64,000 bases of DNA from Streptomyces durocortorensis (GTDB taxonomy: Bacteria; Actinomycetota; Actinomycetes; Streptomycetales; Streptomycetaceae), in assembly GCF_031760065.1 (NCBI RefSeq), contig NZ_CP134500.1:3906001-3970000 (forward strand). Reading direction: 5' to 3'. The notes under the pieces are model-generated. The model searched no databases. It was not told the origin of the DNA and saw only the letters and a program-made list of their open reading frames with translations. Shown piece after piece: positions 5,249 through 40,629 of the stretch. A program made the position numbers and the translations under genes. Within the stretch, counting starts at the first letter, position 1. Each line of letters opens with the position of its first letter.

Positions 5249-5253
5249 CACGG

Positions 5254-5284
5254 CGAAGGCCCCGTCCGGTGGACGGGGCCTTCG
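5254..5284. terminator. Intrinsic terminator hairpin between ccdA and the tRNA cluster
   Basis: A perfect 14-bp inverted repeat (CGAAGGCCCCGTCC with loop GGT) lies just after the ccdA stop and 3 bases from the 3' end of the converging tRNA-Phe gene. It could serve both directions. There is no U-tract, as is common in Streptomyces. Confidence 0.85.
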
Positions 5285-5286
5285 AG

Positions 5287-5363
5287 TGGTGGCTGGGGCC
5301 GGGATCGAACCGGCGACCTATCGCTTTTCAGGCGATCGCTCGTACCAACTGAGCTACCCAGCC
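5287..5363 (-). tRNA. tRNA-Phe (GAA), CCA encoded
   Basis: Read on the minus strand this folds as a complete cloverleaf: acceptor GGCTGGG/CCCAGCC, anticodon loop CTGAAAA giving anticodon GAA, T-loop GTTCGATCC. The 3' CCA is encoded (5287-5289). It is the last gene of a Glu-Asp-Phe cluster. Confidence 0.97.
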
Positions 5364-5385
5364 ACGCAGCCGCTGGGGCTGCAAG

Positions 5386-5460
5386 CGGTCCTGACGGGAT
5401 TTGAACCCGCGGCCTCCACCTTGACAGGGTGGCGAGCACTCCAAACTGCTCCACAGGACC
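5386..5460 (-). tRNA. tRNA-Asp (GUC)
   Basis: Minus-strand cloverleaf with acceptor GGTCCTG/CAGGACC, anticodon loop CTGTCAA (anticodon GUC) and T-loop GTTCAAATC; the discriminator base is G. It is the middle gene of the Glu-Asp-Phe cluster. Confidence 0.97.
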
Positions 5461-5498
5461 AAGCAATGTGCGAAGCAAGTCTCGCACACGGTGAAACG

Positions 5499-5571
5499 TG
5501 CCCCCAACGGGATTCGAACCCGTGCTACCGCCTTGAAAGGGCGGCGTCCTGGGCCACTAGACGATGAGGGC
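5499..5571 (-). tRNA. tRNA-Glu (UUC)
   Basis: Minus-strand cloverleaf with acceptor GCCCTCA/TGGGGGC, anticodon loop CTTTCAA (anticodon UUC) and T-loop GTTCGAATC. It is the first gene of the cluster. Confidence 0.97.
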
Positions 5572-5651
5572 TATTGGCCCGCCGGTTCGCTTTGCAGCGC
5601 GTCGGGGACGAGAGAAGCATATGGGATGGGTGGAGCTATCGCCAAAACGGT

Positions 5652-7313
5652 TTACGGCGATGGGGTCGGCCGCGTCGGGGAGCCGGTCGGGGAGGGGCCG
5701 GAGGGTGACGGCGGGGCGGGCGACGTGGGGGCGGGGTCCTTCAGGTTCTCCTCGGGAAGATGGCGGCTGACCTCGGCGGTCGTCAGACCGAGACCGCCCA
5801 GCGTGATCTCGTCCCAGGCCTGGAGCCGGCGGCTGGCACGGTCCATGTAGAGCACCGACGCGTGCACCTTCTCCGGCTTCTCCTTCTCCACGGCACGCAG
5901 CCCGCCGCCGCCCGTGGAGCCCTCGACCTTCAGCCGTGTGCCGAGCTTCAGCTGTTCGTTGATCCGGCGGTGGAGGTGGCCGGACAGCACCAGCGGGACC
6001 GTGCCGTCGGTCTCCCGGGCGGTGTTGGGGTCGTGGGCGACGGCGATGTCGACCGGGGTACCGGCCCGCTTCTGGTCGCGCAGTGCGGAGGCCAGGCGCG
6101 CGCCCTCCAGCTGGGCGGCCGCCTTGCCGCCGACCGGGGCGGTCCGGTTCGGGGTGAAGGAGATGTCGCCGGTGCCCGCGATCCGCAGTCCGCCCACGTT
6201 CACCGCCTTCCCGTCGTCCAGGACGTGCACGTTCTTGAACTTCTCCAGATAGGCCTGCGTGACGAGGGAGTCGTGGTTGCCGCGCACCCACACGTAGGGA
6301 GCACCGAGGTCACGGATCGGGTCGAGGAAGCTGTTCTCCGCGGAGGAGCCGTGGTCCATCGTGTCGCCGGAGTCGACGATGACGTCGATCTCGTACTGCT
6401 CGACGAGCGAGGCGATGATGTGCCAGGCAGCCGGGTTGAGGTGGATGTCGGAGACGTGCAGGACCCGGATGGTGCCGGGGTCGGGCCGGTAGACGGGGAG
6501 CGTGGAGGTCGCGTCGTACAGCTTGGTGACGTTGGTGACCAGGCGGGCCAGTTCCTGCTGGTAGATGTCGAACTCGGTGACGATCGACCGGGCGTCGCCG
6601 ACGACGGACGGGGCGCTGGAGAGCAGCCCGGAGAACTTCGGCTCCAGGACGGACTTCGGGTTCCAGGTGGCGTACGCGCTGACACCGGAAGCGGCCAGCA
6701 GGGTGAGGGCGAGCCCGCCGGCGGTCAGGGCGCGGCGGGGGCGGCGGTAGACGACGAGGCCGAGCGCGGTCGCTCCCGAGACGACGGCGACACAGGAGCG
6801 CACGGCGAGCTCCCGGGTGCCGGCGGCGACGTCCCGGGTGACCTCGTCCTGGAGGCCGGAGAACCGTTCCGGCTGGTCCACCAGGGCCTGGGAGCGCTCG
6901 GGGTCGAGCCGGTCCACGTCCACGTCCAGCCGGAGCGGCGCGACGTGCGAGTCCAGCTCCAGGGCCCCGAGCGGCGCCACGTTGATCTTGCTGCCGCCGG
7001 AGAGGGACGGGCGCAGGGTCATGTTGGTGTCCATGGGGCCGACCGGCGTACGGATGCTGCCCACGGCGAGCAGCCCGAGCCAGGCGCCCAGCACGACGAC
7101 GGCGAGCATGCCGAGCGCGCGGAGGCAGGGGTGCTGGGCGGGTCCGGTCGGATCGCCGGGGACGGCCGCGCGGGGGCGGGGCCGGGGGCGGGGGTCGAAG
7201 CGGGACTTCGGGCGGCGGACGAGCAGGCTGAGGCGGTGCCGTACGCGTTCGGCTGCGGCACGGAACGGGACGCGGACCATTGGGCCCGTATGCCCCGTTA
7301 CGGCCTCGTCCAT
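5652..7313 (-). CDS. Membrane-anchored metallophosphoesterase
   Basis: The 553-residue protein has three predicted TM segments (about 66-86, 170-188, 196-214) in its first 215 residues. A calcineurin-like metallophosphoesterase domain follows, with all metal-binding motifs visible: SDIH (288-291), SGDTMDHG (315-322), GNHD (345-348) and a later SGHLHRR. The tail after the domain is Pro/Ser-rich. I chose ATG 7313; ATG 7280 (MVRVPFRAA) is also possible. The substrate is unknown; such proteins hydrolyse phosphomonoesters or diesters. It is divergent from the zincin gene at 7405, and its 3' end faces the start of the tRNA-Glu gene. Confidence 0.93.
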   Translation of the reverse strand: MDEAVTGHTGPMVRVPFRAAAERVRHRLSLLVRRPKSRFDPRPRPRPRAAVPGDPTGPAQHPCLRALGMLAVVVLGAWLGLLAVGSIRTPVGPMDTNMTLRPSLSGGSKINVAPLGALELDSHVAPLRLDVDVDRLDPERSQALVDQPERFSGLQDEVTRDVAAGTRELAVRSCVAVVSGATALGLVVYRRPRRALTAGGLALTLLAASGVSAYATWNPKSVLEPKFSGLLSSAPSVVGDARSIVTEFDIYQQELARLVTNVTKLYDATSTLPVYRPDPGTIRVLHVSDIHLNPAAWHIIASLVEQYEIDVIVDSGDTMDHGSSAENSFLDPIRDLGAPYVWVRGNHDSLVTQAYLEKFKNVHVLDDGKAVNVGGLRIAGTGDISFTPNRTAPVGGKAAAQLEGARLASALRDQKRAGTPVDIAVAHDPNTARETDGTVPLVLSGHLHRRINEQLKLGTRLKVEGSTGGGGLRAVEKEKPEKVHASVLYMDRASRRLQAWDEITLGGLGLTTAEVSRHLPEENLKDPAPTSPAPPSPSGPSPTGSPTRPTPSP

Positions 7314-11500: not shown

Positions 11501-11574
11501 GGGCCGTTAGCTCAATTGGTCAGAGCAGCGGACTTTTAATCCGTTGGTTGTGGGTTCGAGTCCCACACGGCCTA
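11501..11574 (+). tRNA. tRNA-Lys (UUU), integration site of the element array
   Basis: Complete cloverleaf: acceptor GGGCCGT/ACGGCCT, D-arm TAGCTCAATTGGTCAGAGCA, anticodon loop CTTTTAA (anticodon UUU), T-loop GTTCGAGTC; CCA is not encoded. The 3' 45 bases lie in the 47-bp core repeated at 31691 and 40583, so the gene's 3' half was restored by element integration. Confidence 0.97.
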
Positions 11575-11594
11575 CCGACAGCAGGGCAGGGGAA
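11530..11594 (+). repeat. Attachment site attL of element A (tRNA-Lys 3' half)
   Basis: Sixty-five bases starting GGACTTTTAATCC and running past the tRNA end to GGCAGGGGAA are identical to 31691-31755. The first 47 bases also occur at 40583-40629. The extra 18 shared bases are element left-end sequence, so both elements carry related left ends. Confidence 0.92.
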
Positions 11595-13866: not shown

Positions 13867-15405
13867 TCATTGGGCCGGAGGCGAATCGGACTGTGACGAT
13901 GTAGGGCGGCTGCGCTGGATCAGAGCGGCTGCCTTCTCCGCGATCTCACGGTCTACCTCAGGCAACAGGCTCGTATACGTGTCTGAGGTCAGGGTGATCG
14001 TGGAGTGGCGGAGGGTCTCCTTGATCGTGTGGATGTCACCGCCGGCGCCGTGGGTGAGCGTCGCGGCCACGTGGCGGAGGTCCCGCAGGGTGATGGGCGG
14101 GAGGTCGGTGGTGGCGAGGAGGCGGCGGAAGGTCTCCGAGACCGTCTCCGGGTGGAGCCAGGATCCGTCTTCCTTGGTGAAGATCTTCCCGGTCTCCTGC
14201 CAGGCGGCCCCCGCCTTCTTCCGCTCCCGTGCCTGACGCTTCCTGTGCGCGCGCAGGACGGCCACGTTCACGCTGTCGAGAGCGATCGTGCCGGCGCTGC
14301 CGTCGGTCTTCGGCTCGGACTCGTACGGGTCCCAGCCGTCGACAACGATCTCCTTGGCGGGGGTGATGAGGCCGGCGTCGAGGTCGGTCTCGTGCCAGTC
14401 CTGGCCGACTGCCTCGCCGCGCCGGAGGCCGCGGGTGCCCATGAGGTGGAAGACGGCGTAGAGCCGGTCCTTCTCGGCTGCGTCCAGGAAGACGCCGAAC
14501 TGCTGCGGGGTCCACACCATCACCGGACCGGGGACCTCGACCGTGTCCCGCCAGCGGCGGACACGTGCGTCGGTCCAGAGGAGCGGCTTGGGGCGCTTGC
14601 CGGACTCCAGCTCGACGTGGGCGGCCGGGTTGAACGTGATGAGTTGCTGGGCGATGGCGGAGTTCAGGGCCGCGCGGAGGGTGCGGCGAACGGCCTGCCT
14701 GGTCGCCGGGCCGGTGATCTTCCGGAACGGCTTCATCTCCGCCAGCTTGGCCCGTTCGGCGGCGAGCAGGGCCCGCTCGGCGGTGACCGGGCGGCCAGGA
14801 CGGCTTGGCTTGCAGCGGGCGATCTGCTCGCGGCGGGCCTGGTTCTCGGCGGCGATCACCTCGTTGTCGTCGGCTATCCCGTCGAACATCTCCACGAGGT
14901 GACCGACGTTGAGCCGGTCCAGGCGAATGTGCCCGATACGGGGCTTCAGGTGGACGCGGATGTGCGACGCGTACCCGTTGAGGGTGGTCCTGCGGCGCTT
15001 CTTCGACGCGAACCAGGCGTCCAGCCACTCGCCGACCGTGAGGCTGCCCCGTAGCCCGAGCCCGGCCCTGAGACGCCGCCGTGTCTCCTCGACGTCGGGC
15101 AGTGTCGCCTTCTCGTCCCCGACCTCCTCCAAGAGCGTGACGAGGCGCTGGAGGCTGTCGGGATCGTCCGTGTCGGCCAGGGCGAGGAGCGCACGGACGT
15201 GGTCGAGGTCGGCCTGGGCGGCCTTGAGGGAGTCGTAGCCGGCGCGGCTGAAGGAGCGGCGGGTGCCGGCTTCGCGGGGTGGGAGTTCCTGGCGTATGGA
15301 GTATGAGCCGTGCTTGCGGTTGGTGAGCTTGGGGCACTTCTTGCCGAGCGGTTTGCCGGTGTGGGGGTCTCGGCAGTAGCAGCGGCGGTGGGTGGAACCC
15401 TTCAA
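13867..15405 (-). CDS. int: Site-specific tyrosine integrase of element A
   Basis: A 512-residue phage-type tyrosine recombinase. The N-terminal part contains a Cys/His-rich segment (RRCYCRDPHTGKPLGKKCPK) and a SAM-like core-binding domain. The C-terminal catalytic domain shows the first Arg in MGTRGLRRGEA, the LRDLRHVAATL box, LRHSTITLTSDTY with the late His and the catalytic Tyr. It presumably recombines the 47-bp tRNA-Lys core. Its start overlaps the stop of the upstream XRE regulator by 4 bases, so the two form an operon. It lies 2.3 kb from attL instead of beside it, the cargo genes separating them. Confidence 0.95.
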   Translation of the reverse strand: MKGSTHRRCYCRDPHTGKPLGKKCPKLTNRKHGSYSIRQELPPREAGTRRSFSRAGYDSLKAAQADLDHVRALLALADTDDPDSLQRLVTLLEEVGDEKATLPDVEETRRRLRAGLGLRGSLTVGEWLDAWFASKKRRRTTLNGYASHIRVHLKPRIGHIRLDRLNVGHLVEMFDGIADDNEVIAAENQARREQIARCKPSRPGRPVTAERALLAAERAKLAEMKPFRKITGPATRQAVRRTLRAALNSAIAQQLITFNPAAHVELESGKRPKPLLWTDARVRRWRDTVEVPGPVMVWTPQQFGVFLDAAEKDRLYAVFHLMGTRGLRRGEAVGQDWHETDLDAGLITPAKEIVVDGWDPYESEPKTDGSAGTIALDSVNVAVLRAHRKRQARERKKAGAAWQETGKIFTKEDGSWLHPETVSETFRRLLATTDLPPITLRDLRHVAATLTHGAGGDIHTIKETLRHSTITLTSDTYTSLLPEVDREIAEKAAALIQRSRPTSSQSDSPPAQ

Positions 15406-21342: not shown

Positions 21343-21443
21343 TCACGGTGGTCAGAGTGGTTCCCGTCATAGACGTCCGGCCTCGCAGAAGCAGCCAGTG
21401 ATCCTTGTGCGCCTGGGCAGCTGGCTCCCGTATCGTCGCCCAG

Positions 21444-22490
21444 GTGACCGACGCGAACGTGGCGGGCAGAACGCACATCCCCGTAGACGATCTTGCCGAG
21501 TTGATCAAAGTGTTCGACATCGGCGAGGTGCTGGATCGGCGGCACTTGGCCGATGGCCTGATGAACGTGAACTGGCGGCTGGACACCCCGGTCGGGAGGT
21601 TCGCCCTCAAGCGGGTCACGGATGTGCCGATCGACCGGCTCCGGCGCAACCTCGCGGTCCTCCCCGTCCTCGTTTCGCACGGCGTCCCCGTACACGTTCC
21701 GCTACCCACCGTTTCGGGCGATGTGATCGCCGAAGTCGGCGGCAGCGGCTATTGCCTGTTCCCCTGGTCGGACGGGGAACACGTGCGTGGAATCGACCTG
21801 CCCTTGTCGCAGGTGTCCGAACTCGGCGCACACCTCGCGCGGCTCCATGCGGTACTGAACCGCGCCGCCGAGGGCGCAGGGCTGCCCGCCGTGCCGCCAT
21901 CGGTCACCGCGGAGGTGACGGAGGCCGGGCGAGCCGTGGAGACGGCCGATCGGCTTGCGGGGGCGGTGCCGACCGGGGGTGTCGGCGACGTCTTCGACGT
22001 GGCCGCGTCCGCTGCCCTCGAAGAGCGCAAGCTCCTTCTCGACAAGCACGCCCACCTGCGCCCCGAGGGGGAAGTCCATGCGGGGCCACACGGTTGGACC
22101 CACGGTGACTTTCAGTACCGGAACCTCCTCTGGGCGAGTGGTGAGCTGGTCGCGGTTCTGGACTGGGACCGACTGGGCATTCGTTCGTACGCGGAGGAAG
22201 TCGTGCGTACGGCGCAGGTGCAGTTCGGTGTGAAAGGTGTTTTCGACCTGGAGCGGGTGTCGGCGTTCACGGCCGGCTACCGGTCGGTGATCCGGCTGGA
22301 GCCGGCCGTACTGGTCGATGCCGCCCGACGGCTGTGGTGGAAGCGGATGACGGACTTCTGGCAGCTCGAATTCCACTACGACCGGGGTGACCACTCCTGC
22401 GACGACCTCTTCCTTGCCGACGAGGCACTCCTGCACTGGTGGACGGAGCGGCTCGACGCGGTGGAGCGGGCGTTCGCCGGGACTGTCTAG
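21444..22490 (+). CDS. Phosphotransferase of the APH/choline-kinase fold
   Basis: GTG 21444 (VTDANVAGRTH) gives 348 residues; the frame is open back to 21405. Motifs of the aminoglycoside phosphotransferase family are visible: FALKRV with the ATP-binding Lys, the catalytic loop HGDFQYRNLLW (about residue 219) and VLDWDRLG with the metal-binding Asp. The substrate may be an antibiotic, a sugar or another small molecule. It is the first cargo gene after the relaxase and converges on the glycosyltransferase operon; its stop overlaps the end of the GT4 gene by 3-4 bases (CTAG). Confidence 0.85.
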   Translation: MTDANVAGRTHIPVDDLAELIKVFDIGEVLDRRHLADGLMNVNWRLDTPVGRFALKRVTDVPIDRLRRNLAVLPVLVSHGVPVHVPLPTVSGDVIAEVGGSGYCLFPWSDGEHVRGIDLPLSQVSELGAHLARLHAVLNRAAEGAGLPAVPPSVTAEVTEAGRAVETADRLAGAVPTGGVGDVFDVAASAALEERKLLLDKHAHLRPEGEVHAGPHGWTHGDFQYRNLLWASGELVAVLDWDRLGIRSYAEEVVRTAQVQFGVKGVFDLERVSAFTAGYRSVIRLEPAVLVDAARRLWWKRMTDFWQLEFHYDRGDHSCDDLFLADEALLHWWTERLDAVERAFAGTV

Positions 22491-30402: not shown

Positions 30403-30672
30403 CCGGCGCTTGACCCCTTCCGCAGTTGGTCTCCTGGGCGACGCTATCGCGCGGCGATGCGACTGCACACAGGGTCCGCCACCCAGTGGGTTCATACAGT
30501 CCGCAGAAAGCAAGCCAATGCTCTCGTTCGAAGTGCAGCCTCTGGGTGGACCTCGCAGCCTGTGAGGCGACCGTAGGGAGAACGCGGAGGGGATCGGTGC
30601 TGTTCAGCGATTCTTCTGACAGCGCGTATCGCCCTCCGTAATCTTGACGTACACGGAGAGACAGGGGGATGC

Positions 30673-31035
30673 ATGACAGACTGGGGTCTTGTGGCTGAGA
30701 GCGTCACCACGGCGCTTACGGGGCTGCTTGTCAGCGATGCCTACACGTCTGCTCGGCCACGATTGAGCGCGATCTTGAACCGTTCACGAAACGATGAAGG
30801 TGTACGGATCGAAGATCTCGATCGCCTTCGTGTGGCGGACCCAGTGGCATTGCGTAGCGCCGTGCACGAGTATGTCTACCGCCTCGCAGCGTCCGATGAG
30901 CACCTGTTGCGGCAGCTTCGGGATGCCCTGAGGGCCTCGCAGCCTCATTCTGGGCTGAACATCTATGACAACCAGTTTTACGGACCCACCCAGATGGGCG
31001 GTACCCAGATCGTCAACATGGGCGGTGGAACGTGA
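30673..31035 (+). CDS. Unknown helical protein ending in an amyloid-signalling-like motif
   Basis: ATG 30673 with a GGGGG ribosome-binding stretch gives 120 residues. The first about 90 residues are helical (SVTTALTGLLVSDAYTSARP, LRSAVHEYVYRLAASDEHLL). The last 21 hold the motif NQFYGPTQMGGTQIVNMG (residues 100-117). An almost identical motif (NVFFGPAVFGGTQNVVG) opens the overlapping downstream protein. Short Asn/Gly/Gln motifs shared by two adjacent proteins are the signature of bacterial amyloid signalling (BASS) or RHIM-like pairs, where a sensor templates an effector. This is an inference; the helical part matches no domain I can name. Confidence 0.75.
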   Translation: MTDWGLVAESVTTALTGLLVSDAYTSARPRLSAILNRSRNDEGVRIEDLDRLRVADPVALRSAVHEYVYRLAASDEHLLRQLRDALRASQPHSGLNIYDNQFYGPTQMGGTQIVNMGGGT

Positions 31036-31463
31036 GCCAGGATCCTGAAGAGCCAGAGGTCCACCACAATGTCTTCTTCGGTCCTGCCGTGTTCGGCGGA
31101 ACTCAGAATGTGGTTGGTGCCACTTTTGCTTCGGTGCCCTCCCGGCCGTCGATTCCCTCGCAGATTTGGGCGGCAATCATGCTGGCATGGGCGTTCTGCC
31201 CAATGGTGGCATGGTGGACGCAGTCAGTTCTTGATGAGGAACTCTTCTCAAGGCTCGCGGGACCTGACCACGACATTGTGGTGTACATCTGGCTGGCGGG
31301 TGGTGTCGCTCTTCTCCTCGATGTAGCGGGCTACTTGCTGTATCGACATTGGGCCGTGGCTCAGCGAGCAATCAACAATGCCGTCACCTGGAAGCTGCGT
31401 CTGGGGGCAGTTGCTCTTGGGGGTGCCGTCCTAGCTATGTCCATGTTCATGACCAGCCGGTAG
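31032..31463 (+). CDS. Three-TM membrane protein with the same N-terminal motif, putative effector
   Basis: GTG 31032 overlaps the previous stop (GTGA) and gives 143 residues. Residues 13-29 are NVFFGPAVFGGTQNVVG, matching the C-terminal motif of the upstream protein (consensus NxF[YF]GPxx[MF]GGTQ). Three hydrophobic helices follow at about 44-62, 82-104 and 124-142. The order motif-then-membrane-domain fits an effector that would disturb the membrane when its motif is templated by the partner. No other domain is visible. It is the last gene before the right end of element A. Confidence 0.75.
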   Translation: MSQDPEEPEVHHNVFFGPAVFGGTQNVVGATFASVPSRPSIPSQIWAAIMLAWAFCPMVAWWTQSVLDEELFSRLAGPDHDIVVYIWLAGGVALLLDVAGYLLYRHWAVAQRAINNAVTWKLRLGAVALGGAVLAMSMFMTSR

Positions 31464-31690: not shown

Positions 31691-31755
31691 GGACTTTTAA
31701 TCCGTTGGTTGTGGGTTCGAGTCCCACACGGCCTACCGACAGCAGGGCAGGGGAA
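31691..31755 (+). repeat. Internal attachment site (attR of A / attL of B)
   Basis: Second copy of the 47-bp tRNA-Lys core plus 18 more bases shared with the left site. The tRNA 5' half is absent, so this is not a functional tRNA gene. Confidence 0.93.
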
Positions 31756-31772
31756 CCCCTCTGACCTGCGTT

Positions 31773-31809
31773 GGAGCGCCCCGATCGGGTTGACCGGTCG
31801 GGGCGCTCC
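31773..31809 (+). terminator. Hairpin at left end of element B
   Basis: GGAGCGCCCCGA paired with TCGGGGCGCTCC; counterpart of the hairpin at 11613-11648 in element A. Confidence 0.7.
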
Positions 31810-31972
31810 GGCGCTTCCGGGGTTCTGCGTGAGCGGATGCTCGAGGCTGGCGCCTCCCCTACGGTCTGCGCCGGAGACGTCGAGACTTTGTGGATGGGCT
31901 CCGCTGGTAGAAGTTCAGCGCTGCCTGATGTGATCCTTCGCGGATGCACGTGCGAAGGATCCCGAACTGAAT

Positions 31973-33235
31973 CTAGTCCCTCTCGATGACGAAGAGCACC
32001 GTCAGGATGTGCTCTGCTGTCCCGAGCAAACAGCGCGCCATGGACAAGTCGCCCGCCGAAGCGTGTTTGATGGCCTGGGCGCGCCCAGTTGCCTGCGTTT
32101 GCAGGGCGATGATGTTGTCCACCAGGGTGCACGTCATCTTCGCTTCTTCCTTGTACCCACGCATGATGTAGCGGATCCGGACCGCACGAGTGAGCCGGCC
32201 GTTGGACGACCGCCATTCCTTCTCAGGACGCCCCGACGTAGGCAACCATTTCTCAACCTCGCTGTCCGGGGCAGCTGCACGGATAGCCCTGTCGATGGAT
32301 TCCACAGCGCACTGGGCCGCCATTTCGGCGGCGGCTGGCGGGGCCTGGCGGACGACGTGCCACCCACCCTCAAGCATCTCCACGACCTTCGTATCGATGG
32401 ACGTCAGCGCCCTGCGAAGGTCTTCCAGCACATCAAGACGCCCAGCCTGTTGAGGGGAGAGCAGATCGTCGACACGGTCGGCGACTTCTACCTCTAGGTC
32501 GGCATCGCTCAGAACGGTCTCAGAGCTGAGCGCGTCTGCTCCCAGCAATCCGTTCACTCCCAGACCAGTGTGCAGGGAGGAGTCGAGCTCAAAGCGCGTT
32601 GGACTATCTCCGAGGCTGCCGACGTAGTCCCGGTACAACGCCAGAGGGCGGCTGCTGATTTCCGACAGCAGGCCGCGGCCGGAGTCCATTCGAGCCAGCC
32701 AGTCCGTCATATACACCTGGCGGTGGACTGTAAGACCGAGGCTCTTGCGGAACTCCTGCGTCGCCCACACTTGGGGCATCGGCACCTTGAAGACGGGGCC
32801 CTTGATGATTTCGCCCATGACGCTCTCGATCTGCAGAGACGTCCGCCATGCAGACAGAGTGCCCGGTCCGACAGCCGACTCGCTGAGCGCGGCCGTTGCC
32901 TTTAGGTACTTGAGATGTTCCCTCCCCGCCAGCTGGTCTATCGAGCGTAGCCCTGCGACATATCCCGCAAGAGCGCTGGGAAACATGTTCTTCTGAGCGT
33001 CGGCTAGGAGCTTCCTGGTACCCAGCAGGTCCTGGCTCTGCAGCCATTTCGCGGCCTGGAACGCCGGGCCCACCTGCAGCTGGCGGAAGAGGTCGCCGTA
33101 GATCCTGCTGGTATCGATGATCTTTGCGACGGCGGCCGCTGCCGCGTCAGGACCCGTCGAAGCCAGCTCGGCTTCGTTGCCGGTGTCGGGTGTCTCGTCG
33201 TCTTCGCCTTCATCTGCGGCGGCATGAACGGCCAT
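31973..33235 (-). CDS. Unknown 420-residue protein, possible defence gene
   Basis: ATG 33235 (MAVHAAADEGEDDET) gives 420 residues. The N-terminal part is acidic then helical (IIDTSRIYGDLFRQLQVGPA). The C-terminal about 170 residues (LLSPQQAGRLDVLEDLRRAL, GGWHVVRQAPPAAAEMAAQC, IRYIMRGYKEEAKMTCTLVD) form a helical domain that faintly recalls predicted nucleases or HEPN-like proteins found beside prokaryotic Argonaute-type genes. I cannot confirm this and see no defined catalytic motif. It is the first gene of element B and transcribed towards the att site. Its lower GC content fits transferred cargo. Confidence 0.72.
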   Translation of the reverse strand: MAVHAAADEGEDDETPDTGNEAELASTGPDAAAAAVAKIIDTSRIYGDLFRQLQVGPAFQAAKWLQSQDLLGTRKLLADAQKNMFPSALAGYVAGLRSIDQLAGREHLKYLKATAALSESAVGPGTLSAWRTSLQIESVMGEIIKGPVFKVPMPQVWATQEFRKSLGLTVHRQVYMTDWLARMDSGRGLLSEISSRPLALYRDYVGSLGDSPTRFELDSSLHTGLGVNGLLGADALSSETVLSDADLEVEVADRVDDLLSPQQAGRLDVLEDLRRALTSIDTKVVEMLEGGWHVVRQAPPAAAEMAAQCAVESIDRAIRAAAPDSEVEKWLPTSGRPEKEWRSSNGRLTRAVRIRYIMRGYKEEAKMTCTLVDNIIALQTQATGRAQAIKHASAGDLSMARCLLGTAEHILTVLFVIERD

Positions 33236-33354
33236 CAGAGTCCCCTCCCCTGATCACATACTGCGATCTACGGAGGATACGCGCCCTATCCGTACCGTTC
33301 AGAGCATTTCTGCTCATCCGGGCAACCGGAGTTAACGATTCTGGGCCTGTTGCG

Positions 33355-33507
33355 AAGGAGCTGGCCAGCCTCGCCCGCACCCTTGCATGGCGCATCCGCC
33401 GCCTTTGCCAACGCCACCCGCCCACCCCGTACGCTCAGGCGGCGATGGCCCGCAACGCCGCACTCCGCCTCGACGCCGTCTACCGACCCCGCTTCCGCTG
33501 CCCGTGA
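33355..33507 (+). pseudogene. Relaxase C-terminal remnant in element B
   Basis: The frame reads ELASLARTLAWRIRRLCQRH, then PPTPYAQAAMARNAALR, and aligns with the relaxase C-terminus of element A (NPARTLTWRIHRLGQRH, GPRAQAAMAR). Everything upstream of this segment is missing. It shows that element B once carried the same mobilization module. It ends where the truncated ImmA/IrrE gene begins, in another frame. Confidence 0.8.
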
Positions 33508-34186
33508 ACTCCGTAGGCGCTGGGGCCTCGGCGACGGCCCTGTCACGCATCTGGTGAGGCGGATGGAGTCCCACGGGATCGTGGTGGTCATGCCGCCTGC
33601 CAGCGATCCCTCTGCCGCGAGCGTGGACGCCTTCTCCACCCGGGCAGCCCGGCCGCTCGTCGTTCTGACCGCCGCCCGGGCCGACGACATCTACCGGCAC
33701 CGGTTCACGGCTGCCCATGAGCTGGGCCACCTTGTGCTTCACGCCGATGCCACCGGTGACAGCCGTCAGGAGAAGGAGGCGGATGCCTTCGCCGCCGAGT
33801 TCCTGACCCCCCAGGACAGCATCCTGCCGTTCCTGCCGGGGCGAATGGATCTTGCACGCCTGGCCGAGCTAAGGGGCGTCTGGGGAGTCTCCCTCCACTC
33901 GCTTGTCTACCGATGCCGCGAGCTGGGGCTGATCTCCGACGCGACTGCCAGCCGGACGTATCAGCGTCTACGCGCTCTCGACGGCCAGCCGGGCTTCACT
34001 GCCGAATCCGTCTCGAACTTCCCCGGTGAACGGCCTTCGCTGCTTCGGCAAGCCTTCGAGCTGGCTGCGAAGGAAGCGGGCCTATCGGTTTCCCAACTGG
34101 CTCATGAGCTGGCGTGGACAAGCGGGAGGGTGCAGGACCTGCTGGGCGTGCAGGAACAGAGGCCGGTGCTCCGGCTGGTCCAGTAG
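33482..34186 (+). pseudogene. N-terminally truncated ImmA/IrrE-type metallopeptidase
   Basis: A frame beginning in the relaxase remnant contains ARELRRRWGLGDGPVTHLVR followed by an ImmA/IrrE domain with the zinc motif AAHELGHLVLHAD and QEKEADAFAAEFLTP. Full-length relatives start with an XRE helix-turn-helix of about 100-150 residues, which is absent here because of the junction at about 33490. Translation could start at ATG 33563 (207 residues), keeping the HExxH motif, so residual activity is possible. In phage and element biology such proteins cleave repressors. The partner is not obvious here. Confidence 0.7.
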
Positions 34187-34339
34187 CAGCGCTGTTCGAC
34201 CTGAGTAGCCGTGGGGCACGGTCGTTTCCCGATGCTGGTGTCAAGAGTCTCCAGCGCCAAGCCAACAACACGTAGCGATGTCATCAGGGCCGACTCATCT
34301 CGGAGTCGGCCCTGATGACCTGCTGACGCACTCGGAGGT

Positions 34340-34777
34340 TCAGAGCGATGTCTCGACTCCGAGGCTTCCGGCCCTGATGGCTCCTCGTAGGACGTAGACG
34401 ATGTCCTCGGGCTTGAGGTCGATACCGTCGAGACCCGCCAGGGTCAGCGGGATCTCCTCCAGCGCGTACTCACCACGGCCTTCGGCGCTGAACTCGGGAC
34501 CGGTGCGGTCGTCGAAGGACCAGGTCGCGATGCGGGCGAGGTAGAAGAGCTGACGCTCGTCGTCGGACTCCATCGTGTGGAGCAGACGGATAATGTCGGC
34601 CTTTCCCGCGATCTCCTCGTGGATCTCGCGGTGGAGGGCGGCCTCGCGTGACTCATCGGTGGGCTCGACGCCACCGCCGGGCAGGACCCAGTACTCGGGG
34701 ATGCCGGGCCTGGTGCGGCGGATGACAAGCATCGTGTGGTCGGGGGTGACGAGGACGGCACGGACTCGTTCGATCAT
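34340..34777 (-). CDS. Nudix hydrolase
   Basis: ATG 34777 gives 145 residues with a complete Nudix box: GGGVEPTDESREAALHREIH followed by EEI (Gx5Ex7REUxEE spacing). The N-terminus IERVRAVLVTPDHTMLVIRR is typical. The enzyme hydrolyses nucleoside diphosphate-linked compounds; the exact substrate is unknown. Nudix genes are frequent cargo of actinobacterial integrating elements. It ends 30 bases upstream-side of the truncated SDR gene on the same strand. Confidence 0.92.
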   Translation of the reverse strand: MIERVRAVLVTPDHTMLVIRRTRPGIPEYWVLPGGGVEPTDESREAALHREIHEEIAGKADIIRLLHTMESDDERQLFYLARIATWSFDDRTGPEFSAEGRGEYALEEIPLTLAGLDGIDLKPEDIVYVLRGAIRAGSLGVETSL

Positions 34778-34807
34778 TTCGTTGGGTCTCCTTGCTTGTT
34801 GACGTTC

Positions 34808-35470
34808 TCAGTGGAGCAGCCAGCCACCATCGACGTGGACGGACTGCCCCGTGAGGAACGAGGCGGAGGGGCCTACGAGAAACGCCACCAGGGCGACGAC
34901 GTCCTCGGGGCGGCCACGGCGCGGGACGCACTGGCGCTTGATCTGGTCCTTCGGCCGCGCACGGTGCCGGGCGGGGAGGGCGTTCTCGGCATCTACCTGG
35001 ATGGCGCCGGGCATGACGGTGTTGACGCAGATCCCGAACGGACCCAGTTCGCGGGTGAGGGAGCGGGTCAGTCCCAGCAGCCCGGCCTTCGCGGTGCTAT
35101 ATGCGACGAGGTTCGTTCGGCCGGCGCGGGCGTTGATGCTGCCGATGTTCACGATCCGGCCCCAGCGGCGTTCGATCATGCCGGGGGTGAATGCGTGGCA
35201 GGTGCGGTAGTGGGCGGTGAGGTTCACGTCGAGGGAGTAGTTCCAGGCGGTCTCGTCGGTGTCCTGCCAGGCGGCGCGGGGGTAGGAACCGGCGTTGTTC
35301 ACCAGGATGTCGACGGGGCCGATCTCGGCGCGGACGAGGTCGGCCATGGCCCGAACGGAGCCCGGATCGGTCAGGTCGGCGTTCACCGCGATCCCAGGGC
35401 TGCCCGCGCGTTCGAAGGCGGCGAGGAGGGCGTGGGCGTCGGGGTCTTGGCCGAGGTGGTTGACCGTCAA
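34808..35470 (-). pseudogene. N-terminally truncated short-chain dehydrogenase (SDR)
   Basis: From TTG 35470 the frame reads TVNHLGQDPDAHALLAAFER, then VDILVNNAGSYP (NNAG motif), YSTAKAG (catalytic YxxxK) and a C-terminal HVDGGW. The first about 35 residues, including the TGxxxGIG cofactor loop, are missing: the sequence is cut at about 35465, where a second truncated gene begins on the other strand. Without the cofactor loop it is very probably inactive. The original was an FabG-like oxidoreductase. Confidence 0.82.
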
Positions 35471-36338
35471 GGCACTCGGCGACTCCGCCTCCGAACTCGG
35501 TGGCGGGCACGCCCGCCACCTGGCCGTCCGCTACCTAACCCAGGACGTCGCTCCTTGGCTGGAGGGCCACTTCACCGAAGCCACCGGCCGCGACCCTTTC
35601 GCCGCGACCTCCCAGCTCGTCCACCTCGCCGGCTGGATGGCACAGGACGAAGGCGACACCCCCGAACTGCGCGGACTCGCCCAGCGCTACTACGCCCACT
35701 CCTTCCGCCTGGCCGCCGAGGCCGGCGATCCGGAACTATCAGCAACAGCTCTCCGCGGCCTCGCCGTCCAGTGCGTCGACCTCGGCTATCGCGCCGAAGC
35801 CGTCCAGCTCGGCGAAGCCTGCGTGGAGTACGGTCACCAGCTCGACAACCCGAGAGCCGTCGCCTATTACGAGGCCACCCTCGCCAACGCCGCCGCCCAA
35901 GACGACGACCGCCGCATGGCCACCAAGCACCTCGCCCTGTCCGAGACCGCCATCGGCAAGCCGACCGCCGCAGCAGACGACTCCTGGGCCGCCCACTACT
36001 CCCCCGGCCGCTGGGCCCACGAGTCCGGCATGATCCTCGCCCGCCTCGGCGACCTCGACGCCGCCGAGGAACACCTCCACCTCGCCCTCGACATCCACGG
36101 CCTCGACCGCCGCCGCACGCGAGCCATCGTCCTCGCCGACCTCGGCGGCGTGCGCCTGCGCCAAGGCGACGTCGAAGGAGCCATGGCCACCTGGCGCGAC
36201 TTCCTCGACTACGCCGACGGCATCCGCTCGGTCAAGGTCCAGGCCGCCCTCCAGGACATGCGTGTCCGCCTACGCCGGTACACCGGAGTTCCAGAAGCCC
36301 AGGAACTCCGCGAGCAGGCAGCGCGCATCTCAAGGTGA
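35469..36338 (+). pseudogene. N-terminally truncated XRE/TPR regulator
   Basis: The frame after about 35466 reads LGDSASELGGGHARHLAVRY, then SQLVHLAGWMAQDEGDTP and TPR-like repeats to the stop at 36338. This is the C-terminal part of the Streptomyces XRE/TPR regulator family (about 400-450 residues); the N-terminal HTH is absent. Its lost 5' end lies directly against the lost 5' end of the divergent SDR, so one deletion removed both starts and the promoter between them. No obvious start codon or RBS remains. Confidence 0.8.
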
Positions 36339-36477
36339 TCTCGGTGTCAGCTCTGTCAGTAGCGGGTGATAAGCCTGTTCTTCAGTCAATCGGCCCGGCA
36401 TCACCTGAAGGTCAACCGACCCTGCGGGGCGCATGCACCACGCGGACCGAAACCGCACTTCACTGACAGGGATCACC

Positions 36478-37395
36478 ATGCTCGACTTTCACGAGTTGGC
36501 GCCGGACGGCGAGGGCCTGGAGCAACTAGTCCGAGAACTGGCACTGGCTCTCGGCTACAGGGCCAAGTGGTCCGGCCGGGGAGCAGACGGCGGACGTGAC
36601 CTTCTTTTGGAAGAACCAGGGGACGCCCTGCTGGGAGCGAAGACGCGGAAATGGGTGATCTCGTGCAAGCACATGGCGCATGCCAAGGATGGTGCAGGGC
36701 GCTCGGTCAACGGTGAAGACGTAGGCAGTATCGGCGGCATCGTGGACGCCGTTGCACAGCACGACGCCGACGGCTTCCTCCTCGTCTGCTCCACCCAACC
36801 CTCAAGCGCCCTGGTGTCCAGACTGGAATCGATCGAGCGAACCAAGGGCGTGCACACCCACGTGTGGGATGGAGTGGAACTCGAACGCATGCTTGCTACT
36901 CCCCGAGGTTGGGCGGTGGCCCAGCGGTTCTTCCCGGTGAGCGCCGAAGCCAGCGGGTGGAAAGTTTTCGCCACCAGCGAGCCTAACCGTTTCATCGGAA
37001 TCACCCGCGGCTTCTACCTCCGTGTCGCCAACCGACACGGAAGCGCAGTTGGATTCCCACTCAAATGGATCGACGAACGTCTGGACAGAGTCGCCTCGAT
37101 CGCATTGCCCGTTGGTCATGAAATTCGCCCCCGAGGTGTATTTTACGACGACAAGCATGGCGGGTTCGTCTGGTACCTCGACTACTTGCACGGATACCGA
37201 AGTTGGCGGCGCGAGGAGATCGAGCCGCCGATGAATGAGTACACGTTGCGCCAGCGGCTTGGCGACGATGGCGTCTCCTTTGATGACGGACAATACGACA
37301 ACTTCGAGATCACCTTCAGAAAGGTCAACCGGGGTCACGACGCCTACGATGCAGACCACTACCGGTACTACGAGAGCGTCCCCAGCTACGTCTAG
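36478..37395 (+). CDS. Mrr-like restriction endonuclease-fold protein
   Basis: ATG 36478 with AGGGA upstream gives 305 residues. The N-terminal domain has the Mrr/type IV restriction pattern: GADGGRDLLLEE (residues 35-46, with the metal-binding Asp) followed by WVISCKH (about 59-65, the xCK catalytic pair). The C-terminal about 170 residues (FIGITRGFYLRVANRHG, FVWYLDYLHGYRSW) are unassigned and may recognise modified DNA or a partner. No methyltransferase is nearby. It may be a standalone defence nuclease. Codon use is less GC-biased than in core genes. Confidence 0.8.
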   Translation: MLDFHELAPDGEGLEQLVRELALALGYRAKWSGRGADGGRDLLLEEPGDALLGAKTRKWVISCKHMAHAKDGAGRSVNGEDVGSIGGIVDAVAQHDADGFLLVCSTQPSSALVSRLESIERTKGVHTHVWDGVELERMLATPRGWAVAQRFFPVSAEASGWKVFATSEPNRFIGITRGFYLRVANRHGSAVGFPLKWIDERLDRVASIALPVGHEIRPRGVFYDDKHGGFVWYLDYLHGYRSWRREEIEPPMNEYTLRQRLGDDGVSFDDGQYDNFEITFRKVNRGHDAYDADHYRYYESVPSYV

Positions 37396-37518
37396 GCCGC
37401 CAGCCTCGCATGGCCTATTTGAAGCCCCATGCCATACGGCTGAAAAGTTGGAGCCGAGACTCCGTGGGTCGGGTTGGTGAAGACTCCCAGCAACGCTCAG
37501 TCCCTCTGTGTCCGCCTG

Positions 37519-38424
37519 CTAGAAGGGCGTCTCTGCATGCTCTCGCAACCAGAAGTTGACGGAGCTAAAGCCGGGGCGCAGAGCGACCTGCACCAATTCC
37601 CATCCACCCCAGAAGCTGCCGATTTGGTCAGCGTCCATGCCGTGCACAATGGCGGAGACTGGACGGTCGCGACTATGCATAGGCATCTCTGCCCCCTTAG
37701 GCCAGTGCGGCTCGATAAGTGGCGAGGCGCAGAAGGACTCGAGCTCTGCGACGGCCTGCTCAACCTCCACTCCGGCTTGCGTCGAACTACCCACAGAATG
37801 TGTGAGGTGAGCCATAAATCGCATCTTTTCGGTTCGCCTGCGATGCTCGAAGTCCACTGACGCCAAGAACGTCGCTGCCGTGAGGGACGGACGCTCCCTG
37901 GTGGGGGCCAAGGCGACTGTGCTGCCAGCACTGCCATCGTGCCGATAAATAGCAGCATCTTGGTAGCCGATGTCCTGGAGAGCGCTGGTCACGTGCCGGC
38001 GAAGAAGACGGCGCTCGCCAATCTCCACCATAGTTGGACTCTCCCACTCAACCCTCATGGCGAGAATGGCACGTGCCCCTACGGCGAGTTCTGGATCCGT
38101 GGGTTCTTCAATCGGGTGATCGATGTGGGCCGCACCCGAGGCCATCAGCCACAGGGCGTGAAGGTCTTTCTCCTCCCTGGCGATGTCACCGGCTGGCACC
38201 GTCTGCGCAAGTGCACGAGCCAGCAGCTGCACGAGACCCCACGACGGAAGCCGACTGTCAGTAAACGCGTCGTGGATGCGGCTTCTGCTGGCCACCCCGG
38301 CACCGACGCTTCTGGCGAGGTCGCGAACCGGAGGTAGCCCGGCGCGCTGGTGCAGGTCGTGCAGAGCGTGGTTGAGGTCACGGAGCGGGCCGTAGGGAAG
38401 GTCCGGCCTCTTCAAACGCGCCAC
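37519..38424 (-). CDS. HTH-containing protein of element B
   Basis: ATG 38424 gives 301 residues. The N-terminus (PYGPLRDLNHALHDLHQRAG, RSRIHDAFTDSRLPSWGLVQ) resembles the DNA-binding segment found in many Streptomyces XRE-like proteins with HTH but no standard annotation. The C-terminal about 170 residues have no known domain (FLASVDFEHRRRTEKMRFMA). Likely a regulator of an accessory gene, or the sensor half of a conflict system. It converges on the Mrr-like gene. Confidence 0.7.
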   Translation of the reverse strand: MARLKRPDLPYGPLRDLNHALHDLHQRAGLPPVRDLARSVGAGVASRSRIHDAFTDSRLPSWGLVQLLARALAQTVPAGDIAREEKDLHALWLMASGAAHIDHPIEEPTDPELAVGARAILAMRVEWESPTMVEIGERRLLRRHVTSALQDIGYQDAAIYRHDGSAGSTVALAPTRERPSLTAATFLASVDFEHRRRTEKMRFMAHLTHSVGSSTQAGVEVEQAVAELESFCASPLIEPHWPKGAEMPMHSRDRPVSAIVHGMDADQIGSFWGGWELVQVALRPGFSSVNFWLREHAETPF

Positions 38425-38561
38425 GCTCGCCCCCCGTGTCCCTCGCCGTCAGAATCCGTCCGATTCTGTCCGACGTTGCCAGGCGCCGTCCATCAGCGTC
38501 TTGGGAGCCCCCGGACGGCACACGCTGGGACGGATACGTCGAACGATCTGAAGGAGTTGCT

Positions 38562-38753
38562 GTGTTGGGGGTTTCCTGGACCGCAGTCAGTGAAGGTGCG
38601 ATCGCCGAAGCGTTGGGGTCACTCGCAGCCATGGCTGTGGTGGCCGCGGGCGCTCTGCTGCGGAAGCGGTTGCGTCGCAACACAAGGCAGCACCCGGCGA
38701 ACACCCTTGACGACGCGGAGAACAGGCACGGCGCGGAGCAAGGGCCTTGCTAG
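38562..38753 (+). CDS. Small single-TM protein
   Basis: GTG 38562 with a strong AAGGAG 5 bases upstream gives 63 residues. One TM helix spans about residues 14-33 (AIAEALGSLAAMAVVAAGAL), followed by a basic, Asn-rich tail (LLRKRLRRNTRQHPANTL). No motif is recognised. It is divergent from the HTH gene at 37519-38424. Confidence 0.6.
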   Translation: MLGVSWTAVSEGAIAEALGSLAAMAVVAAGALLRKRLRRNTRQHPANTLDDAENRHGAEQGPC

Positions 38754-38763
38754 GACAGCCGGC

Positions 38764-38820
38764 TCGATTCCCGTCATCCGCTCTTGAACGAAGCCCCAGG
38801 TCAGCCGCCCTGGGGCTTCG
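38764..38820 (+). other. tRNA-Gly-like 3' fragment plus terminator hairpin
   Basis: TCGATTCCCGTCATCCGCTC (38764-38783) equals the T-loop and acceptor 3' side expected for a Streptomyces tRNA-Gly, without any tRNA 5' half. A perfect 12-bp hairpin CGAAGCCCCAGG/CCTGGGGCTTCG follows (38789-38820), as after a tRNA gene. Best read as a relic attachment site of a second element that targeted tRNA-Gly. Confidence 0.6.
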
Positions 38821-39308
38821 TTGTTTCCGGGCTGCGAGGTCATCAGTGGCGAGGCGTTCGTCGAGAAGGTCAGCCAGGAAGGTGTCGTCGAGATTCGGGC
38901 GGCCGCGTCGGGCACGCACTCGGCAGGGACGAGCTGCTGGCCGTGATCGGCACCAACGACAAACCCCACATCATGACCCTCCCCTTCCGCAATGTCTTCA
39001 GGGCCGGCCAGTGCGACCTCCCGGTCGTCGGCCCCATCGCCCCGAGGCCCGCGAGGTCCACGAGGGCTCCTGGAACTGGCCTCCGGTAAGCCCCACCGAG
39101 CACCCTCCCGGGGGCTGTCTAGGACCCATTGGATGACCCCGTCCGACGTGCACAGCGACCTCGTTCGGGTGTGCTCCACCCGTGTCCCACCGAACGGTGA
39201 ACAACGCTCGCCACGGGTGTAGACGGCGCCTCACCATAGGCTGGGTAATGAGGTGTATCCGCAGGTCAGAAGCAGCGCAGGCGGCATGGGTGGCGGTGAC
39301 TCCCAAGC
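38821..39308. other. No recognisable gene (probably degraded)
   Basis: Several frames are open, but none shows an RBS, a familiar domain or consistent codon bias. Fragments such as VIGTNDKPHIMTLPFRNVF hint at decayed coding sequence. The gene at 39309 converges on this area. Confidence 0.4.
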
Positions 39309-40175
39309 TCATAGCTCTTCGTCGTGCAGATACAGCTCGGCCTCTTCGAGCCGGATGAGCCAGCTGTGGGACGACGTGCGGTCCACCGTCACGCCTTTGA
39401 TGCCGGCGGCGGGGTGGGTGAGAGCTGCGGTCAGGTCGGCAGGGAAGGGGTAGCCCCGCCATTCGAGGTCCCACCGGCCCTCGTGCCCCCACAGCCGGCC
39501 AGCGGGCGACCAACGGGCTCGTTCGGTGGGGCGGTCGAGCGGGTCCATGAACCATCCCCCCAGGTCGAAGGAGCCGTCTGGATCTCGCAAGGACATGCGC
39601 ACCCAGATGCCGGCCAAGAGCCGCTTCATGGAGGGAATGATCTCGGGTACGGCGGCGAGCTTGTCGTACTCGTCGGAGGTGAGCGGCTCCTCCACGCCGA
39701 GACGTCGGCGCAGATTCGGCAGGCGCCGTGCGCGGCCCCGGCCGGCCGAGAGGGTGTCTCGCTCGGAGACGTACATCTGAGCACCACTGGGCAAGTGCCG
39801 TAGGCGCCACAAGTGGTAGCCCAGGCGCTCCTCGACCCTCATTCCTGGGATGTGGGGGTCGGTCGGACTGCCGACGAGGCGGAGGGCGACGTTGTCGCAG
39901 GCATTGACGATCAGCACGAGGTGATCGAATCGTGGGGAGATGACCGGCCCGTACGCGCCGATTTGCCCGACCCGCCAGCGCAGTCGAGGCGCGGTCAGCG
40001 TTCCTTGGTTGAAGCAGGCAAGAGCCAACAGAGCGCGTAGTTCGGTCTGTTCCGGGGTGCAGTGGTCCAGGCCCAGCCCGCCGGATCGATCGATTCCCGG
40101 GCGAGCAGTGGCTGGAACCTCTCCCGTGAATCCGGCGCGGATGAGCGAGGCGGCCTTGGCCGTGGTGTGGGGCAT
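39309..40175 (-). CDS. Unknown 288-residue protein
   Basis: ATG 40175 gives 288 residues (MPHTTAKAASLIRAGFTGEV). Notable segments are FDHLVLIVNACDNVALRLVG, LGYHLWRLRHLPSGAQMYVS and a C-terminal SHSWLIRLEEAELYLHDEEL. No domain, signal peptide or TM helix is recognised. It is the last gene before the right end of element B, transcribed inward. The function is unknown. Confidence 0.65.
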   Translation of the reverse strand: MPHTTAKAASLIRAGFTGEVPATARPGIDRSGGLGLDHCTPEQTELRALLALACFNQGTLTAPRLRWRVGQIGAYGPVISPRFDHLVLIVNACDNVALRLVGSPTDPHIPGMRVEERLGYHLWRLRHLPSGAQMYVSERDTLSAGRGRARRLPNLRRRLGVEEPLTSDEYDKLAAVPEIIPSMKRLLAGIWVRMSLRDPDGSFDLGGWFMDPLDRPTERARWSPAGRLWGHEGRWDLEWRGYPFPADLTAALTHPAAGIKGVTVDRTSSHSWLIRLEEAELYLHDEEL

Positions 40176-40582
40176 AGCGCGATGTCCTTCGTCGCTGCCG
40201 GGTCAGCGGGGGATCGCGTCCGTGTTCGCACATCGGGGAGGCACGTCAGGGAGTAGCGGAGTGGGCGCGCCGCACCCTGGACGAGCCAGGAAACCCGGGC
40301 GACCCGCTACGTCCTCCGGGCCTCCGCGGACCGGTTGCGGCTGACGATACCGGCGTGATCGGTGGAATTGCCGGACTCCACACGCTGGATTCATCCGATG
40401 GGGTTCCTAGCAGGATCAACGTCGACGATGGGGCGTAACGCCGTCCGTGCGTGAGCGATGCGTGAGCGGATGTTCCGGCACAGCCCGGTTTCGGCCGGAT
40501 CGCTCAACGCCGCTCATCTCGTCCGACCAGGCATCCCAGGACAGGACGGCATCACCCGGCAGCACCCGGTCGGACCCGGCCA
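40176..40582. other. Right end of element B with arm-site-like repeats (no gene seen)
   Basis: Non-coding. At 40446-40468 lie the two GCGTGAGCG repeats also present at 11664-11686. Bases 40469-40582 are homologous to the right end of element A. Confidence 0.7.
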
Positions 40583-40629
40583 GGACTTTTAATCCGTTGG
40601 TTGTGGGTTCGAGTCCCACACGGCCTACC
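40583..40629 (+). repeat. Attachment site attR of the array (tRNA-Lys 3' half)
   Basis: Third copy of the 47-bp core, GGACTTTTAATCC to GGCCTACC, followed by unrelated sequence that was originally downstream of the tRNA gene. Confidence 0.93.

Follow-up and report, generated by a model that had tools for sequence, protein, structure and literature searches.

Two short overlapping genes of Streptomyces durocortorensis, P1 and P2, encode a BELL-like helical protein and a small membrane protein that carry a common amyloid-signal-like motif, and on balance we read them as an NLR-free amyloid-signalling pair in which P2 would be the membrane seed or sensor and P1 the membrane-targeting effector. 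Both genes lie on the forward strand of the stretch analysed here, 64,000 nucleotides of contig NZ_CP134500.1 (positions 3,906,001 to 3,970,000), which we call the window and in whose numbering coordinates are given unless another locus is named. P1 (30673..31035) encodes 120 residues, a BELL-like domain followed by a C-terminal BASS-like motif, and is the putative effector; a possible ribosome-binding site, GGGGGA at 30664-30669, was read by eye. P2 (31032..31463) encodes 143 residues, with a BASS-like motif at the N-terminus followed by two clear and one borderline transmembrane segment. The stop codon of P1 and the start codon of P2 overlap in GTGA (31032..31035), which suggests translational coupling and agrees with the two overlapping genes described in the first-pass annotation of this DNA. 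A promoter scan found none, and the single terminator-like match, against 0.7 expected by chance, lay inside P2.

The P1 motif, NIYDNQFYGPTQMGGTQIVNM (30958..31020), sits within a tail predicted to be disordered (residues 92-120), and the P2 motif, NVFFGPAVFGGTQNVVG (31068..31118), starts at residue 13. The C-terminus of P1 reads NQFYGPTQMGGTQIVNMGGGT, its end being NQFYGPTQMGGTQIVNM followed by GGGT, and the pattern common to the P1 C-terminus and the P2 N-terminus is N.F.GP...GG.Q. Likeness between the two proteins is limited to these ends: when the full-length proteins are aligned locally, the top match falls on the motif region. For the P1 tail against the P2 head, the score was 54 for the window pair, 55 for that of S. 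acidiscabies and 62 for that of a third genome, G047, and in each of these three distinct pairs none of 20,000 shuffles of the tail reached the observed score, so that the motif sharing first noticed by eye withstood a quantitative comparison. The pattern was exclusive to these pairs within the 2,719,054 six-frame residues of the loci collected by that stage. In a motif-pair test covering the 60 best-scoring coding-like ORFs, the window match stood 5.3 SD above the shuffled maximum, and 12 canonical BELL/NLR pairs in the same run stood at 3.8-16.9 SD. This test is insensitive: it missed the genuine NLR pair of L016 (49 vs 38 +/- 4.6), in L083 it passed over a 173-aa membrane protein adjoining the BELL gene and found an upstream membrane protein instead, and its matches in L067 and L100 were taken as chance. 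Between the three distinct loci, 10-12 of the 13 residues of the motif core are kept, compared with 65-70% of the rest of P1 and 50-64% of the rest of P2. Counting against the pair reading, the P2 motif of G047 was top-scoring with all three distinct P1 motifs in a similarity matrix, in which a preference for the own partner was absent. The core tetrad of the RHIM is [IV]Q[IVLC]G. This tetrad is missing from all four known P1 tails, the P2 heads read GGTQN and Pfam gave neither protein any match at E<=1; the suggestion of a RHIM-like motif was therefore dropped in the strict sense.

The same gene pair was found at four loci, in the window, G047, Streptomyces sp. SM11 and S. acidiscabies, and all four have kept both motifs and the gene overlap, so that the pair does recur in other genomes as the earlier annotation had proposed to check. 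The overlap is GTGA in the window and SM11, and 17 bases long in G047 and S. acidiscabies. The S. acidiscabies P2 matches at 65% and the SM11 copy is near-identical; in SM11 (L032:7001-7432) an IS630-like transposase gene, named by eye, cuts P2 short by its last residues. A profile built from P2 and the relative in G047 gave convincing matches in two of 295 genus genomes, those two themselves, together with eight further weak matches (E 0.005-0.08). The SM11 and S. acidiscabies loci were picked out when about 85,000 species genomes were scanned by a pattern-based method. A class-wide sample yielded one genome out of 296, namely the window's own copy. Searches of 72,556 plasmids and of 50,697 phages found no relatives of P1 or P2, and IMG/VR, searched with P2 alone, held none. 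The P2 family is tiny. Between the window and S. acidiscabies, dN/dS was 0.19/1.00 for P1, for which values were obtained in two of six genome pairs, and 0.25/0.65 for P2; given these values, both frames look to be under purifying selection. Third codon positions take just over half of the base changes in P1. In the window, third-position GC was 0.67 for P1 and 0.64 for P2; the other three loci gave 0.60-0.75, compared with 0.77-0.91 for the genes called at 11.7-30.5 kb by a caller that favours high values. The low third-position GC of the pair hints at a possible foreign origin.

The pair occupies the right end of a mobile element, as had been proposed from the letters alone. A tRNA-Lys(ttt) gene lies at 11501..11576 on the forward strand, and the last part of it (11541-11572) is the left att-like copy of an exact 32-base repeat of the tRNA-Lys 3' end, which recurs at 31702 and 40594; there are thus seemingly two tandem elements, of 20 kb and 8.9 kb. 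The copy at 31702..31733 (forward strand) closes the 20-kb element, of which P1 and P2 are the last genes and which contains a tyrosine integrase gene (13867..15405, reverse strand; PF00589, 6.1e-10), HTH, DUF3631, DUF2637 and MobC-like genes and a glycosyltransferase cargo. The cargo also includes an APH-family phosphotransferase gene (21405-22490; PF01636, 9.8e-22). The second tandem element (31734-40625) is a possible defence or regulatory island, in which a pPIWI-associated nuclease-like gene (31973-33235; PF18165, 7e-7) adjoins an RmrA/M78-like gene (33350-34186; PADLOC, 8e-53). About 220 bp past the pair in S. acidiscabies, there is a copy of the tRNA-Lys end that has two mismatches (L033:7651). 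Around the G047 pair, 55.8 kb of sequence contained no tRNA gene.

The first 91 residues of P1 (30673..30945) comprise five predicted helices, the first of them hydrophobic. An HMM of 84 other BELL-type domains, from which P1 relatives were excluded and which was trimmed to the domain end (the boundary in L107 may take in some motif), matched only the four P1s when the window and the other three P1 loci, 893 ORFs in all, were searched, at E 5e-8 to 5.5e-7 (window P1, E 3.1e-7, 26.7 bits); the 84 domains had been collected with a five-row profile, two rows of which were P1 relatives. Alignment of P1 to the BELL-type HMM with hhalign gave a probability of 95.8%. The BELL label of the canonical set rests on architecture and not on a published BELL profile, and P1 is named by homology to that set. 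Judged by its profile match, the P1 domain is BELL-like, which gives a name to the helical part that the earlier annotation had not recognised. AlphaFold2, run with a three-sequence alignment, predicted a five-helix bundle at residues 4-89 and a disordered tail from residue 92 (mean pLDDT 73.9; 77-89 by block over residues 1-90). Foldseek found no fold match for this model in the PDB (best E 3.6), and among PDB sequences nothing was better than E 0.39. A known Pfam domain was rejected for P1 (no match at E<=1) and for its G047 counterpart, which had no match either, as was an NCBIfam family for P1, the matches of which (E 0.03-0.13) were far under the cut-off. For three other BELL-type proteins, Pfam gave only E 0.025-0.09 matches to unrelated families; three other BELL-type proteins had no NCBIfam match and one PADLOC match at E 0.012. 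For P1 and P2, the PADLOC 2023 defence models gave no family at E<=1.

A search with P1 alone produced matches in nine of the 295 genus genomes. Besides the window and G047, three of these (G264, G287 and G019; 32-51% over part of the domain) combine a helical domain of similar kind with an Asn/Gly-rich motif at the C-terminus. In G019 (L016), the downstream gene overlaps the BELL-type gene, and its product opens with a motif of this sort and contains an NB-ARC domain (1.1e-7), with TPR under the cut-off; the next ORF in G287 (L015) also starts with an Asn/Gly-rich motif, and no partner was found beside the BELL-type gene of G264. Loci such as L016 follow the arrangement published for BELL/BASS pairs (PMC7889193, PMC8086366). 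In G093 and G151 the P1-like domain is N-terminal in long NTPase/TPR-like proteins. The matches in G096 and G165 fall in frames that look non-genic and were taken as chance.

In P2, two transmembrane segments are clear (TM2, 31275..31343, residues 82-104; TM3, 31395..31451, residues 122-140), and the putative first one (TM1, 31161..31223, residues 44-64) is of borderline hydrophobicity. Only two segments pass the hydropathy cut-off in the P2 proteins of G047 and S. acidiscabies, where the one around 44-64 was not detected; of the three helices initially assigned to P2, two are thus secure whereas the first is doubtful. The AlphaFold2 model shows three long helices after a disordered stretch of 39 residues that includes the motif (mean pLDDT 55). 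The loop at residues 65-81 has five acidic residues and one basic, and that at 105-121 three basic and no acidic, a charge distribution from which, provided that TM1 is genuine, the positive-inside rule would put the P2 motif on the cytosolic side; without TM1, the motif could face outward. P2 matched no Pfam, NCBIfam, PADLOC or PHROGs family and has no Walker A motif.

We additionally surveyed BELL loci across the genus with a census profile built on five BELL-type proteins, of which two were P1 relatives; it matched 193 of 295 genomes at E<=1e-3. Among the matches listed, 80 loci were taken, best first and mainly as short open frames, giving a non-random sample. All 80 contained the BELL match, in L098 inside a longer NLR-like frame, and nearly all BELL tails carried an Asn/Gly- or VYQAGRD-type motif by eye. 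A Walker-A ORF lay directly downstream of the BELL gene in 26 loci and an NLR-like ORF elsewhere in the stretch in seven more, and 47 loci had neither. Since BELL genes without a visible NLR are this common, such a gene alone is no evidence of an NLR-free pathway. Among the four close loci, no homologue lacks the motif or the partner, but with 47 of the 80 sampled loci showing no recognised NLR neighbour, a BELL gene without a visible partner is common. The window's own genome has a second locus, in which a BELL gene overlaps an NLR gene (L034; G000:C1:308837-309286).

Membrane proteins with an N-terminal BASS-like motif were found within about 2 kb of the BELL gene in six of the 47 NLR-less loci (L083, L086, L088, L091, L095 and L084). 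Because their partners are nearly identical, L083, L086, L088 and L091 count as one case and not four; the downstream copy in L091 matches from residue 16 onward only. In the motif-pair test the L083 group was found via the upstream membrane protein, L095 via a 128-aa protein, and L084 at 3.3 SD. On the minus strand of L084 (G097:C409), the BELL gene (5926-6510) is followed by a partner gene (4475-5815) whose product has an N-terminal BASS-like motif, a basic stretch, one transmembrane segment and a Tectonin domain (PF19193, 1.8e-7), in that order, and looks like a transmembrane amyloid-signalling receptor. This partner is complete in one of 295 genus genomes. A wider tectonin-type receptor family was rejected: at E<=1e-3, matches to the first 126 residues of the partner come from 12 of the 295, all weak beyond G097, and six of the 11 matches outside G097 overlap BELL tails; in plasmids, the matches start at residue 165 or later (at least, in the five of 21 rows listed). 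L083:4169-8622 is a prophage-like remnant; beside a terminase-like fragment (PHROGs), it contains a BELL gene, two genes for N-BASS membrane proteins and one for a further N-motif protein, of 215 aa. Directly after the BELL gene of L095, a minus-strand gene (L095:5228-5788) encodes a 186-aa protein with an N-terminal BASS-like motif, in which no hydrophobic segment and no Pfam match was found.

The small membrane family of L083 occurs in 10 of 295 genus genomes at E<=1e-5; the G008 match belongs to a long frame that follows immediately on a BELL match, and is probably the motif of an NLR. Two phage-collection searches found no member. Genes of this family also occur in actinobacterial prophages, antisense between the terminase and portal genes (L175:5590-6078 and L176:5256-5678; the L166/L176 frame contains an internal stop), with no BELL gene within 12 and 11 kb, respectively, and likewise none in L174 and L177. 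IMG/VR supplied four more loci with the gene in this antisense position (L178:7001-7450, L179:7001-7450, L180:7001-7435 and L181 from 7001), without a BELL gene within 12-14 kb. In L178, L179 and L181, the terminase and portal genes were identified with PHROGs; the flanks of L180, which is not independent since it encodes the same protein as L175, were labelled through L175. In L181, tblastn confirms the first 70 residues only, and the called portal frame covers the start of the small gene. A second protein of the same kind adjoins the first in L178, by eye. The position between terminase and portal may be a cargo slot that carries decoys or sensors of the amyloid-signal type.

Since the P1 domain is BELL-like, P1 would by homology be the effector and P2 would stand in the position of the NLR receptor, which reverses the initial assignment of P2 as effector. 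At rest, P1 would be inactive, a monomer in solution whose small helical bundle is predicted to act against membranes and whose C-terminal amyloid-signal motif is flexible, and the N-terminal motif copy of P2 would substitute for that of an NLR. A membrane trigger, perhaps phage adsorption, a lysis protein or depolarisation, could cluster P2, and the clustered motifs would nucleate a beta-arch fibril that templates the P1 motif and gathers BELL domains at the membrane, leading to membrane damage and to cell death or arrest. Templating between the two motifs seems to us quite likely, we lean slightly towards P2 acting upstream and P1 downstream, and we give phage defence an even chance of being the pair's purpose.

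The roles might instead be exchanged, with P2 as a membrane effector whose helices permeabilise the membrane and P1 as a soluble sensor or adaptor whose motif nucleates that of P2. P2 is a membrane protein by hydropathy and model, and in L012 and L018 a P1-like domain is, by eye, N-terminal in long NTPase/TPR proteins that look like receptors. The canonical pairs argue the other way, with the C-motif BELL protein the presumed effector and the N-motif protein the receptor (PMC7889193, in its accessible parts), as does the L084 partner, whose tectonin domain past the transmembrane helix is receptor-like, and we consider this exchange unlikely. A little less probable again is that P2 is an immunity or decoy protein that anchors the P1 motif at the membrane in an inactive co-assembly, much as viral RHIM proteins capture the RHIM partners of the host, making the pair toxin-antitoxin-like. 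A decoy is plausible for the prophage N-BASS membrane proteins, the genes of which stand antisense in the gap from terminase to portal, with no BELL gene in the DNA examined around them, and accessible text of PMC7375649 proposes a decoy RHIM for ORF20 of varicella zoster virus. The window pair, however, has a BELL of its own, and its coupled overlap, effector then partner, matches the order of BELL/NLR pairs; the decoy idea for the prophage relatives is worth testing even if it is wrong for the window pair. Finally, the two genes might serve the element itself, in intra-mycelial spread or in exclusion of related elements, with the motif only joining two proteins. Streptomyces plasmids carry small Spd membrane proteins; the window pair occupies the att end of an element that has integrase, MobC-like and DUF2637 genes, and the S. 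acidiscabies pair also adjoins this tRNA-Lys end. Both the BELL-type domain and the BASS-like motifs, however, are associated with NLR immune pairs, and the G047 pair has no tRNA gene nearby, and we hold this role for the element to be very improbable.

Extending the NLR-free reading of P1 and P2, we tentatively propose, as an idea less probable than the reading itself, that Streptomyces, together with its mobile elements, employs a class of transmembrane proteins whose amyloid-signal motifs face the cytosol (small hairpins, the three-TM protein and the tectonin receptor) and which trigger BELL death effectors without NLRs or, in phages, sabotage them. If true, this would be a prokaryotic parallel of the transmembrane receptors and viral decoys that act on RHIM signalling, and some actinophages would have a dedicated cargo slot between their terminase and portal genes.

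BELL/BASS pairs are already known, and Dyrka et al. (2020, J Mol Biol) is reportedly the founding paper for the BELL/BASS NLR signalosome. In the literature searched, which did not include Dyrka et al. 2020 and was in part accessible as partial text, we found no description of an NLR-free BELL pair with a membrane protein replacing the NLR, nor of phage-borne N-BASS membrane proteins, and a term search of PMC12881547 gave no match. The signalosome is described in the accessible parts of PMC7889193, PMC8086366 and PMC12261475; according to those of PMC7889193, BASS motifs lie at the BELL C-terminus and the NLR N-terminus, the genes are adjacent or overlapping, BELL activity is a hypothesis, and the variation described is on the effector side, with CHAT or TIR instead of BELL. 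The window pair shares with this system the BELL-like helical domain with a C-terminal motif, the Streptomyces host and the adjacent overlapping gene whose product starts with a matching motif, but differs from it in that P2 is a 143-aa membrane protein with neither a Walker A motif nor any match to NB-ARC/NACHT or to repeats. The proposed class of BASS-like paired motifs is supported by their place at effector C-terminus and partner N-terminus, by their conserved pairing and by their mobile setting. As in RHIM, BASS3 and fungal PP motifs, a short Asn/Gly/Gln-rich pairing motif is present in effector and partner.

Like the viral decoy RHIM proteins exemplified by varicella zoster virus ORF20, the pair places a signalling-amyloid motif on a virus or mobile element; unlike them, P2 is a membrane protein with its own effector, and a decoy role is conjectured for the prophage relatives only. 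Gasdermin/protease neighbour pairs, mentioned in the accessible text of PMC9815663, similarly cluster effector and activator genes; P1 and P2 have no family match, and so no protease or gasdermin domain is recognised in them. As far as the accessible text of PMC7889193 goes, NLR-independent amyloid signalling is an open question, and the pair and its related loci are concrete candidates for answering it. If our reading of P1 and P2 is right, a system of 263 residues couples a membrane event to prion-like templating, and prophages carry related components.
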